The notes under the pieces: model-generated
Seen by the model: the letters and a program-made list of their open reading frames with translations, nothing else
What the model was told of the DNA's origin: nothing
Database searches by the model: none
Program-made: the position numbers and the translations under genes
Source: Pyrobaculum neutrophilum V24Sta
GTDB lineage: Archaea > Thermoproteota > Thermoprotei > Thermoproteales > Thermoproteaceae
Assembly (NCBI RefSeq): GCF_000019805.1
Contig: NC_010525.1
Location: 248,001-312,000, forward strand
Length of the DNA: 64,000 nucleotides
Reading direction: 5' to 3'
Shown: positions 50,460 to 54,397 of the stretch, piece after piece
How positions within the stretch are numbered: position 1 is the stretch's first letter
Layout: each line of letters starts with the position of its first letter

Positions 50460-51230
50460 ATGCTAGACGCCGTGTTGTTCATAGGCGTCCCATATCTCGC
50501 ACTAGTAGTACTTATTATAGGAGTTCTAGCCAAGATAGGCGCCTGGATTTCGCCACGTGGGCTAACCTCTCTAGCCTCCGTAGCTGTAGTTTCCTACAAC
50601 TGGAGCGCAGGAGCTAGAGCTGGAGAGGTGTTAAAACGGATATTGACATTCTACACACTGAAATACACCAACGACAAGTTGCTCTACTGGGGTGCGCTCC
50701 TCTTCCACTGGGGTATATTTCTAACTCTCTTACTAGGCCACACAGCTCTCTTCTTCTCCCCTGAGCAGCTTGCGGCAATGGGCATAGACCCATCCACTAG
50801 AAAAATAATAGCTATAGGCCTAGGGACGCTATTTGGCATTGTGGTAGTTATAGGATTAATCTTGCTCTGGGCTAGGCGGCTGACAAAGCCTGAGGTAAAA
50901 AGCTTTACCTTCGCCGACGATTGGTTTGCACTAGTCTTAATAACGGCGATAGTACTCGTAGGCCTAGTTAACACCGCAGTCATACATCCACATTATGACA
51001 AAACAGTTACGCCGTGGCTACAAAATCTACTGACAGGCAATGTAGCCGCGGCGTTAGAGGCCATAACTAAGGCGGAGCCGCTGGTTAAATTACACATATT
51101 CCTCGCAGAGGTGCTAATGATATACGTCCCATTTGGAAAAATGATACACCCATTTACAATATTCTTTGAACCTACAATTACATCTGCACCATATAAAGTA
51201 TCTGGAAGCGAAGTTATTTTTTCAAAGTAA
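50460..51230 (+). CDS. DsrM/NarI-like membrane cytochrome b subunit (second copy)
   Basis: 256 residues, five helices. LLFHWGIFLTLLLGHTALFF near residue 80 places two His on one helix, and the final helix has KLHIFLAEVLMIYVPFGKMIHP near residue 217 with two more, a fit to two b hemes as in NarI/DsrM. Compared with the first copy it lacks the charged insert. It lies 38 bases before dsrA and is likely the membrane anchor dedicated to DsrAB, with the DsrK copy at 47902. Confidence 0.8.
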   Translation: MLDAVLFIGVPYLALVVLIIGVLAKIGAWISPRGLTSLASVAVVSYNWSAGARAGEVLKRILTFYTLKYTNDKLLYWGALLFHWGIFLTLLLGHTALFFSPEQLAAMGIDPSTRKIIAIGLGTLFGIVVVIGLILLWARRLTKPEVKSFTFADDWFALVLITAIVLVGLVNTAVIHPHYDKTVTPWLQNLLTGNVAAALEAITKAEPLVKLHIFLAEVLMIYVPFGKMIHPFTIFFEPTITSAPYKVSGSEVIFSK

Positions 51231-51267: not shown

Positions 51268-52506
51268 ATGGCTGCACCCCCAAATCTACCGCCGCCAGAT
51301 AAACTGCTCGAGATGGCTGAGCAATACCTCAAAGAGCTAGAGAAGGGGCCGTGGCCAAGCCACGTGGCGGAGATAAGGAAAACAGGCTACCCACTCCACG
51401 TATATGGCGTTGGTCTAGTCGCTAGAAAAAGCCCGTGGGGGCCTAGCGCGGTAAAGGCAAAGCGTCTAACGGGAGTATTGGCGAGAATTGCTAGAGATTG
51501 GGTGCCGAAGGGCGGAGAGGAGGTACACTTCAGAGTCTTCCACACCCCCGGTAGGTTTCTACCAACGAGCTACCTAAGGGGAATTATAAAAGTGGCCAGG
51601 GAGTACGGAATCGGCCTTGTGGAAGTGGTAGGTCAGACGGGCGCCATGGTGATTAATGTGAGGAGCAAAGAGGTGGGAGACGCCATGATTGAGGCGTTGA
51701 GGCAGGTTGGTACAGACGTAGGCGGTAGCGGCGACGCCATTAGAGAGCTGAATACATGCGTAGGCCCCGCCCTCTGCGAATTTGCGCTCTACGACACTCT
51801 GAAGTGGTTTACGGAGTTTAGAAAAGACAAGAAGATCCACGACGCAATTGCAGTGCCGGGGTTCCCCTACAAGTTCAAGATTAAATTCTCGGGGTGCCCC
51901 ATGGACTGCGGTAGAGCAAACAGAGCAGACCTCGGCTTCATTGGAACATGGAAGGGCGCCCCCGAGGTAGACCAGGAGCTACTGAGGAAGAAGATAGAGG
52001 CGGGCGAGGTGGACCCCAACGACCTCGTTTCTAAATGCGCCGGGGGGGCGATAAGTTGGGACGCCGAAAAGAAAGAGCTGAAAATAGACGGCTCTAGGTG
52101 TAAGAAGTGTATGTACTGTATTAGGAAGGCGTACCCGGCCATCAAGCCAGGGAAAGAGAGACGTGTGGCTGTGGTGGTAGGTGGTGGATCAAAGGGGAGG
52201 TACGGTCCTAAGCTCGGCTGGTTTGTGGGGTACCTGAAGCCAGACGAGGTGCAGAAAGGCATAGAGTTGGTGTTTAAAGTTATTGAGCCGTGGGATAAGG
52301 AGGCGCAGGCCAAGGTACGCGTAGGAGACTACATCCTAATGACTGGGCTTTACCAATTCATAGAGAAGACAGGCATACAGCTAGAGGACACTCCGAAGCT
52401 TGTCGAAAAGTTGCCAGACAATGTGCCGTACCGCGTCTTGCCGGAGGAGGAGCGTAAGAAATATGCCCAGTTTGCAGAAGAACTAAGACGGGCGGTGGGG
52501 ATATGA
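51268..52506 (+). CDS. dsrA: Dissimilatory sulfite reductase alpha subunit
   Basis: 412 residues, leaderless behind TTATTTAA (51241-51248). Siroheme-[4Fe-4S] site: CVGPALCEFALYDT near residue 168 (Cx5C) and FSGCPMDCGRANRADLGF near 209 (Cx3C). A ferredoxin insert follows with SKCAGGAISWD and CKKCMYCIRKAYPAIKPG near 254 and 278. Together with DsrB it forms an alpha2beta2 enzyme reducing sulfite by six electrons, delivering sulfur to DsrC. ATGA overlap with dsrB. Presence of the full Cys set says the enzyme is intact. Confidence 0.96.
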   Translation: MAAPPNLPPPDKLLEMAEQYLKELEKGPWPSHVAEIRKTGYPLHVYGVGLVARKSPWGPSAVKAKRLTGVLARIARDWVPKGGEEVHFRVFHTPGRFLPTSYLRGIIKVAREYGIGLVEVVGQTGAMVINVRSKEVGDAMIEALRQVGTDVGGSGDAIRELNTCVGPALCEFALYDTLKWFTEFRKDKKIHDAIAVPGFPYKFKIKFSGCPMDCGRANRADLGFIGTWKGAPEVDQELLRKKIEAGEVDPNDLVSKCAGGAISWDAEKKELKIDGSRCKKCMYCIRKAYPAIKPGKERRVAVVVGGGSKGRYGPKLGWFVGYLKPDEVQKGIELVFKVIEPWDKEAQAKVRVGDYILMTGLYQFIEKTGIQLEDTPKLVEKLPDNVPYRVLPEEERKKYAQFAEELRRAVGI

Positions 52507-53639
52507 GCGCGATACAGTTAAACATACCCAACGAGCTCGACAGATTCTTGCCGGATATAGTCAAGAGGAACTACGGCAAGTGGAAAGAGAGGAAGTTCCA
52601 CGGCCCCGGCATTATAGAGCACGTCTCCGAGACAGGCGAAAGGGTGTTCACCGTGAAAGCGGCTCTGCCGCCTAACGCCAGAGTTAGCGTAGACACGTTG
52701 GAGAAGTTTGCGGATATCGCCGATAAACTGGGCGTAGGCGCCCTGCGTATAACTATTGCGGGCAACGTCGAGTTTATCACAGACTCGCTTGAGAAAGCGC
52801 TGAAGATCAGAGAGGAGCTGGAGAAGCTGGGCTTCCCAGTGGGAGGCTGGGGAGGAGCGCTGTGGGGCATTAACACATGTACCGCGTTTCTCACATGTCA
52901 AATCGCGGTGATAGACGCGCCGAGCATCGGCAAAGCGCTTGGAGACGCCCTCAAGCCCTACTTCACGGGCGAGGAGAAGCTTCCCGCAAAGCTGAGGGTC
53001 TTCATATCTGGCTGTCCCTCGGGTTGTGCAGGAGGCACTGCTATTGACATAGCAATTGTCGGCATGTGGGGCGCCCCGCCCAAGATAAGAGAGGAGGTAC
53101 TGCCGCTGTGTATGCCTCCTCCCAAAGCCCTTGCTAAAATACCAGAGAGCCAGGTATTCCTAGTGCAGGTGTGTCCAACCGGCGCGTTGACGCTAAGGAG
53201 AGAGGGAGAGAAGATAAAGCTTGTATTAGTGGGCGAGAAGTGTATCAACTGCGGCCGTTGTAAGGACAACTGCGACGCGTTTGACTACGACCCGAAGGAC
53301 GTAGGCGCGGCCATATTGATAGGCGGCAAGATGGCGAATACAGGAGTTGGGCCTAGACTCGCCAGAGTACTTATACCGTGGATTCCTGCAAATCCGCCGA
53401 GATATGATGAAATAATCGCGGTTGTGAAAAAGGTTGTTGATGTGTGGAAGAAGCATGGCAGACCTGGAGAGAGACTTGCAGACTTCGTCGAGAGAATAGG
53501 CTGGGCAAAGTTCGTCGAGTTGGTGGGTGCGCCGAAAATGGCGGCGCAGTATCTATGGTGGCCAGACGCCGCAAGAACCTACCTGACATACAGGGCCAGG
53601 GGCGAGGTTATATTCAAAGGATTCAGAGATGCGCCATAG
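52503..53639 (+). CDS. dsrB: Dissimilatory sulfite reductase beta subunit
   Basis: 378 residues. GINTCTAFLTCQIAVIDAPS near residue 121 and FISGCPSGCAGGTAIDI near 164 hold the siroheme-cluster Cys; VCPTGALTL and CINCGRCKDNCDAFD near 222 and 243 bind the ferredoxin cluster. In known enzymes the catalytic siroheme sits in the DsrB half. It overlaps an unknown gene by 11 bases. Confidence 0.96.
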   Translation: MSAIQLNIPNELDRFLPDIVKRNYGKWKERKFHGPGIIEHVSETGERVFTVKAALPPNARVSVDTLEKFADIADKLGVGALRITIAGNVEFITDSLEKALKIREELEKLGFPVGGWGGALWGINTCTAFLTCQIAVIDAPSIGKALGDALKPYFTGEEKLPAKLRVFISGCPSGCAGGTAIDIAIVGMWGAPPKIREEVLPLCMPPPKALAKIPESQVFLVQVCPTGALTLRREGEKIKLVLVGEKCINCGRCKDNCDAFDYDPKDVGAAILIGGKMANTGVGPRLARVLIPWIPANPPRYDEIIAVVKKVVDVWKKHGRPGERLADFVERIGWAKFVELVGAPKMAAQYLWWPDAARTYLTYRARGEVIFKGFRDAP

Positions 53640-54024
53640 GGAGATACCCCCTGGAACACTACCCTTTTTCCTTGCCTACCAGACAGAAAATAGAGAGTTT
53701 TTCCACATCCCCCACTTCAAGATGTATGTAATTTCAGACCTCTCCCCCTCCTCGTACACGCTCAGTTTTATATGGTACGGAGTGAAGATACAGGGAGAGA
53801 AAGAGACCGCTATAGAGTTCACTGCGGATAATATACCGTGGGTTGGTAGAAAGACAAAGTTTGTACTTGTGCTCTTCCCCACAGAGGGGGGTTACCAACC
53901 GCTTCTCCGCGTTGAAATACCGCTAGGAGATGCCATGTTTCACTGGGACCGCATAGCTTATGCAATACTACAGGAGAGGCTACACAACCTCCTAGGCGAT
54001 GGATATATAGTTTCTCAGATTTAA
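53629..54024 (+). CDS. Protein of unknown function between dsrB and dsrC
   Basis: 131 residues, no Cys except none in the core, beta-rich (FVLVLFPTEGGYQPLLRVEI) and without membrane helices. It overlaps the dsrB end by 11 bases, and dsrC begins 38 bases later behind its own promoter. I cannot assign it to DsrD, DsrE/F or other dsr accessory proteins. Its tight coupling to dsrB and absence of alternative partners argue for a role with the reductase. Confidence 0.6.
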   Translation: MRHREIPPGTLPFFLAYQTENREFFHIPHFKMYVISDLSPSSYTLSFIWYGVKIQGEKETAIEFTADNIPWVGRKTKFVLVLFPTEGGYQPLLRVEIPLGDAMFHWDRIAYAILQERLHNLLGDGYIVSQI

Positions 54025-54061
54025 GTAACTAAATTTTTTATTTCATATAGTGATTAACGAC

Positions 54062-54397
54062 ATGCCGGTAAAATGTCCAGGGGAGTATAAAGTAGACGAT
54101 GTAACAATAATATTAGACGAAGAATGTTTTTTATCAAATCCCGAGGTGTGGAATGAAAAAGTTGCCGAGTGGATGGCACGGGAGCTTGAGGGCATACAGA
54201 AGATGACCGAGGACCACTGGAAGGTAGTTAAGTACCTTAGAGAGTATTGGGAGACCTACGGCGTGTGTCCACCTATAAAGATGTTGCTAAAGGAGACTGG
54301 ATTTACTCTTGAGCAGATCTACCAGCTATTTCCCTCGGGGCCTGCCAACGGCGCTTGTAAAGTAGCAGGAGCGCCAAAGCCAACAGGCTGCGTCTAG
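54062..54397 (+). CDS. dsrC: DsrC sulfur-carrier protein
   Basis: 111 residues from ATG 54062; TTTTTTATTT at 54033-54042 excludes the frame extension at 54050. The TusE/DsrC fold with a WMARELEG-type helix and a flexible C-terminus NGACKVAGAPKPTGCV: two Cys ten residues apart with the last one penultimate, the pattern of true DsrC. Those Cys carry the trisulfide from sulfite reduction, later reduced by DsrMK. An intact DsrC with both Cys means the whole DsrAB-C-MK electron path is encoded here. Confidence 0.94.
   Translation: MPVKCPGEYKVDDVTIILDEECFLSNPEVWNEKVAEWMARELEGIQKMTEDHWKVVKYLREYWETYGVCPPIKMLLKETGFTLEQIYQLFPSGPANGACKVAGAPKPTGCV

Follow-up and report, generated by a model that had tools for sequence, protein, structure and literature searches.

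In bacterial sulfate reducers, the sulfite reductase DsrAB is served by DsrD, a small allosteric activator that folds as a winged helix (about 78 aa) and is encoded by a gene linked to dsrAB. In archaea, DsrAB was reportedly purified from Pyrobaculum islandicum as an alpha2beta2 complex, and Molitor et al. are said to have named a further gene, dsrG, in the same organism in 1998, describing its product as homologous to eukaryotic glutathione S-transferases (GSTs). A review describes early-diverging DsrAB lineages as lacking dsrD (PMC10591310). These lineages serve arguments on the origin of sulfite respiration. For T. tenax, the genome paper names dsrABCGK under TTX_1185-1188 and 1191, from which the gene after dsrB is dsrG (PMC3189178). 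The name is already in print, so the gene is not new by name. A literature search for dsrG together with Pyrobaculum or sulfite found nothing; the compound form dsrABCGK escapes such a search.

We analyzed a window of 64,000 nucleotides from P. neutrophilum V24Sta, in which dsrA, dsrB, dsrG and dsrC follow one another in that order (Table 1). DsrA, DsrB and DsrC of the window all exceed the cut-offs of their curated family models. Beginning with its ATG, dsrG shares its first 11 nt with the end of dsrB, stop codon included, which confirms a preliminary description in which an ORF between dsrB and dsrC overlapped the dsrB end. That description had also called the protein unknown and without recognizable similarity to Dsr accessory proteins. 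The first holds for function and not for the name. The second agrees with our searches, in which P. neutrophilum DsrG matched no Pfam and no NCBIfam family at E <= 10, and we therefore reject its assignment to any known Dsr accessory family. We recognize the ORF as dsrG by its place directly after dsrB in a member of the Thermoproteaceae and by its close sequence identity: the two nearest dsrG loci encode proteins 95% and 87% identical to it, the former from a genome (G026) that we take to be possibly P. islandicum. In place and identity (87-95%), this is the same gene as dsrG of T. tenax and P. islandicum and differs from it in nothing essential.

Table 1. Features of the dsr locus, with positions counted from the first letter of the window
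Feature	Position	Strand	Remarks
dsrM-like membrane protein (nitrate reductase gamma family)	50460..51230	+	37 nt upstream of dsrA; PF02665, E 1.5e-36
dsrA	51268..52506	+	412 aa; TIGR02064, 565 bits
dsrB	52503..53639	+	378 aa; TIGR02066, 538.8 bits; clade 'type 1' (dsrG-carrying) in the DsrB tree
dsrG start / dsrB end overlap, 11 nt	53629..53639	+	same 11-nt overlap at 7/14 loci
dsrG (ORF under study)	53629..54024	+	ATG start; 131 aa; no cysteine; homologues, dN/dS, confident model
Candidate separate dsrC promoter: AT-rich, TATA-like stretch	54031..54043	+	some 25 nt upstream of the dsrC ATG; by eye
dsrC	54062..54397	+	ATG at 54062, frame open from GTG at 54050; PF04358, TIGR03342

dsrG is a genuine gene, and purifying selection acts on it. 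Between P. neutrophilum, a relative resembling P. islandicum and a single T. tenax copy, its dN/dS is 0.08-0.10; dsrA and dsrB give 0.04-0.06 in the same comparison. Searching with a profile built from relatives, as the preliminary description had proposed, we found homologues in 12 genomes of an even sample of 398 from the phylum Thermoproteota (14-row profile, E < 1e-40), all of them Thermoproteaceae; the next match was short, at E 8e-4. Weak matches outside the family, in 35 genomes with a single protein as query (E 0.003 to 0.78) and in 15 with the profile (E 8e-4 to 0.07), were taken as chance, being short and in many cases holding stops or lying inside much longer frames. Of the true members, the single-protein search also overlooked G300 and scored G218 at no better than E 0.03. 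A scan of named genomes, run with patterns from five close sequences and liable to omit records near the window, returned one locus, in P. oguniense. Together, the homologues, the dN/dS and the confident predicted model rule out a random or spurious ORF.

The presence of dsrG follows one clade of DsrB. Within the Thermoproteaceae (19 genomes), dsrG occurs in 12/12 genomes with dsrA and in 0/7 without it, three of these seven being only 73-76% complete. Across the 45 genomes of the order, 28 encode dsrA at E <= 1e-60, and the 16 of these without dsrG all belong to the sister family. In a DsrB tree of 29 loci, dsrG sits directly 3' of dsrB at 14/14 'type 1' loci (two copies interrupted) and at 0/15 of the others. 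Type 1 was first defined by the presence of dsrG and was afterwards found to be a single DsrB clade, with support 98; the seven second dsrAB copies of the Thermoproteaceae form another (support 97). Six fetched loci were left out of the DsrA and DsrB trees (L061, L063, L067-L070). Among them, L070 of P. oguniense (G123:C1:813000-832900) has a third type-1 dsrB, which is broken, together with a shortened dsrC and neither dsrA nor dsrG. At up to 85-86% identity to intact copies, this dsrB is the fifteenth of the clade and the sole type-1 dsrB found without dsrG.

The junction between the two genes is tight. Besides the seven loci that share the 11-nt overlap, one has an overlap of 4 nt, three of 1 nt and one a gap of 3 nt, so that 11 of 12 uninterrupted loci have a dsrG start overlapping or abutting dsrB. 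The position of dsrC is looser: it follows dsrG directly (29-47 nt) at five of the 14 loci and 419-485 nt downstream at another five, with single cases 3.5 kb downstream and 4.9 kb upstream and two in which it is not in the fetched stretch. Since dsrC is directly next at only 5/14 loci, dsrG is locked to dsrB and not, as first described, between dsrB and dsrC. At the two interrupted loci, dsrG carries an in-frame TAA (G050) or a frameshift (the MAG G189); it is dispensable there, or these are sequence errors. The former, L053:7348-7725 in what is presumably P. aerophilum, lies beside open dsrA and dsrB.

Protein distances of DsrG and DsrB are correlated over 12 of the 14 loci (r = 0.93; Mantel, 0 of 2000), a correlation due in part to linkage and shared ancestry. 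Without G135, r is 0.94 for DsrG-DsrB, 0.87 for DsrG-DsrA and 0.95 for DsrA-DsrB. At L055 of that genome (G135:C7:259000-278900), the two dsrA copies group with the clades opposite to those of their dsrB neighbors, as if swapped between the two dsrAB pairs or through a MAG error. The mean protein distance of DsrG is 4 times that of DsrB.

We count the linkage, the co-occurrence, the overlapping starts, the selection and the distance correlation with DsrB in favor of DsrG being a partner of DsrAB, together with the lack of dsrG beside the broken, dsrA-less dsrB of P. oguniense. The interrupted copies in G050 and G189 and the 16 sister-family genomes with dsrA and no dsrG count against such a role. 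On balance, we lean toward a reading in which this small cysteine-free protein is most likely a non-catalytic binding partner of DsrAB in the Thermoproteaceae. Given its overlapping start codon, DsrG would probably be translated in step with DsrB; it would then bind the sulfite reductase and either help its assembly or tune its activity, in a place taken by DsrD in bacterial sulfate reducers. The reported alpha2beta2 composition of DsrAB suggests that DsrG is not a tight subunit. DsrG is possibly the archaeal counterpart of DsrD: both are small proteins with genes linked to dsrAB, and they may share a role. They differ in size and predicted fold, and P. neutrophilum DsrG does not match the DsrD model PF08679 at E <= 10. 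DsrD itself gave one weak, sub-cutoff match in the 45 genomes of the order. The suggestion in the preliminary description that the protein works with the reductase is partly supported, by genomic patterns.

We assessed the predicted structures of DsrG (mean pLDDT 93.6, pTM 0.88) and of a distant paralogue described below (mean pLDDT 93.2, pTM 0.87). DsrG is predicted to have eight strands, mostly antiparallel, and helices at residues 11-16, 99-103 and 106-122, so that a long C-terminal helix accompanies an antiparallel sheet. With either model, Foldseek against the PDB gave no match at E <= 0.001; the top rows were mixed for both, with many PR-10/START-like proteins, the best E being 0.064 for DsrG and BirA appearing at E 0.009 for the paralogue. 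In a second comparison, the best match of DsrG was ExsC (3kxy_A; Z 6.7, rmsd 4.1, 101 aligned), with further matches to STM2138 (Z 6.5, rmsd 4.3, 104 aligned), CesT (Z 5.9, rmsd 4.1, 99 aligned) and YbjN (Z 5.5, rmsd 4.3, 102 aligned). The best 28 rows included 20 type III secretion chaperones, three YbjN proteins and four of an Arp2/3 subunit. ExsC was also the best match of the paralogue (Z 5.4). The list for the paralogue was more heterogeneous: Arp2/3 and VecA came next, and PprA, influenza polymerase and a START domain were present as well. As both Z values to ExsC are below 8, under the safe level of the tool, a fold common to DsrG, its paralogue and the secretion chaperones is likely on these models and not proven.

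Secretion chaperones and these Arp2/3 subunits have SCOP fold d.198 in common, with an alpha-beta3-alpha-beta2-alpha topology. Both models have modest Z values to ExsC; that of the paralogue follows this order behind an additional helix, and in that of DsrG strands replace the middle helix. The likeness of DsrG to type III secretion chaperones and YbjN-like proteins is one of fold only, without detectable sequence similarity: P. neutrophilum DsrG and six other members gave no match to the chaperone family at E <= 10, and a sequence search of solved structures with the 14-row profile found 0 PDB chains at E <= 10. The same search with the paralogue gave five matches, all at E 0.17 or worse. Since secretion chaperones bind segments of other proteins, we offer the predicted fold as support for a binding role.

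The preferred reading, a DsrAB-binding partner, has two forms, one being a DsrD-like activator. The other, narrower than the reading as a whole, is an assembly chaperone that would hold DsrB or apo-DsrAB until the cofactors are inserted and leave no trace in the mature enzyme. The chaperone-like predicted fold, the start codon coupled to dsrB and the reported purification of alpha2beta2 DsrAB without DsrG all fit this form. A common fold, however, proves no function, and the data do not separate assembly from regulation; we regard the assembly chaperone as a tentative proposal.

The second dsrAB copy of the Thermoproteaceae also has a small gene attached. In 6/7 genomes, a protein of about 160 aa ('N', with a GRPRPYL motif) is encoded directly after its dsrB, and sequence comparison indicates that it is probably a distant paralogue of DsrG, with real but distant homology. 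A profile of members from the family and its sister family plus one distant member was run on the 3,269 ORFs of the fetched loci. Six dsrG proteins ranked 14-19, right behind the profile's own members (best E 4e-5), and a seventh ranked 21; the other seven ranked 97 or lower, that of P. neutrophilum being 97th at E 87, so that the support comes from the seven longer dsrG members and not from the shortened P. neutrophilum protein. In reverse, the DsrG profile placed three paralogues at ranks 15-17 (E 0.23-0.48), none significant individually over the 3,269 ORFs. Profile-profile alignments with hhalign were collinear over 84-104 columns at probabilities of only 11-49%, varying with the input alignment (E 1.8e-4, 49%; E 4.1e-4, 35%; E 1.6e-3, 16%; E 2.9e-3, 11%). 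For the alignment at E 1.6e-3, 0 of 200 column shuffles reached the score; with the alignment reversed as a control, E was 0.018 across 21 columns. From the ranking and the collinear alignment, we read the two proteins as homologous. They share their best structural match and a place after a dsrB; they are only about 10% identical, and the paralogue has a longer N-terminus.

The paralogue was found in 16/398 genomes. In the sister family, it adjoins a Pyr_redox_2 flavoprotein, upstream of dsrA. Two of the 16 genomes show no dsrA: G292, which is 84% complete, and G093, a single contig 99% complete with no dsrA at E <= 1e-20. In G093, the paralogue sits among sulfide dehydrogenase-type flavoproteins and DUF1641 (L120:8025-11709), flanked on one side by a Pyr_redox_2/FCSD flavoprotein and a DUF1641 gene and on the other by a second such flavoprotein and, by eye, a DUF1641-like stretch. 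A more distant member adjoins a CCG/ferredoxin-domain protein. Both settings suggest that the superfamily has ties beyond DsrAB. The preliminary description had held that homologues without dsrAB would speak against a role with the reductase; for dsrG there were none in the 398 genomes, and the distant paralogue in G093 is one. We count the place of the paralogue after the second dsrB, and ExsC as the best match of both models, in favor of the DsrAB-partner role. More speculatively, DsrG and its paralogue could make up an archaeal family of DsrAB partners with a fold like that of secretion chaperones. Each would go with its own DsrB clade, would have been duplicated together with DsrB, and would play the part that the unrelated DsrD plays in bacteria.

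The distribution of cysteines bears on what DsrG might do chemically. P. neutrophilum DsrG and its two closest relatives have none, and the P. neutrophilum protein thus cannot perform thiol chemistry by itself. The remaining 11 carry a cysteine at each of two matching places (in G050, within the upstream open part), and that of G189 has a third. Because both were lost together, the pair looks like a structural disulfide and not a catalytic thiol, a pattern that argues against DsrG as a thiol transferase or sulfur carrier. It is unlikely, in our view, that DsrG works in a sulfur relay with DsrC or a DsrE-like protein as its partner instead of DsrAB, the cysteine-free proteins being unable to bear sulfur on a cysteine. 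Such a relay would suit the ten of 14 loci with a downstream dsrC on the same strand at a distance of no more than 485 nt, and the opposite-strand DsrE-family gene between dsrG and dsrC at L045, L048, L053 and L055 (membership confirmed for the L045 copy), but at the remaining four loci dsrC is far, upstream or not in the fetched stretch, and dsrB is always adjacent.

It is also quite unlikely that dsrG has no Dsr role and is a passenger in a tight dsrB operon. The two interrupted copies and the fast evolution of DsrG point that way, and linked genes have a common history in any case; yet dsrG has stayed next to dsrB across three genus-level groups and also where copies are duplicated, and the seven family genomes without dsrA lack it. 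That DsrG is a GST-like enzyme, a view whose sole support is the reported 1998 claim on the P. islandicum protein (95% identical if G026 is that species), is highly improbable and is rejected here on the family profiles (no GST match for P. neutrophilum DsrG or six other members, two of these six having chance-level matches elsewhere), on the empty sequence search of solved structures, and on a predicted model of mostly antiparallel strands that lacks the thioredoxin-like plus all-helical architecture, including any helical C-terminal domain, and has no GST chain among the matches listed in the Z-scored comparison.

If DsrG is indeed a clade-specific, co-inherited partner of DsrB, the archaeal enzyme would also have a dedicated helper, and the GST label, said to date from 1998, would be corrected. 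DsrG is a concrete protein for work on archaeal DsrAB. In the sister family, five loci of one genus, g5 (L058, L060, L064, L065 and L069), encode a protein of 304-314 aa between dsrB and dsrC; for the copy at L058, Pfam gave no family at E <= 0.01.
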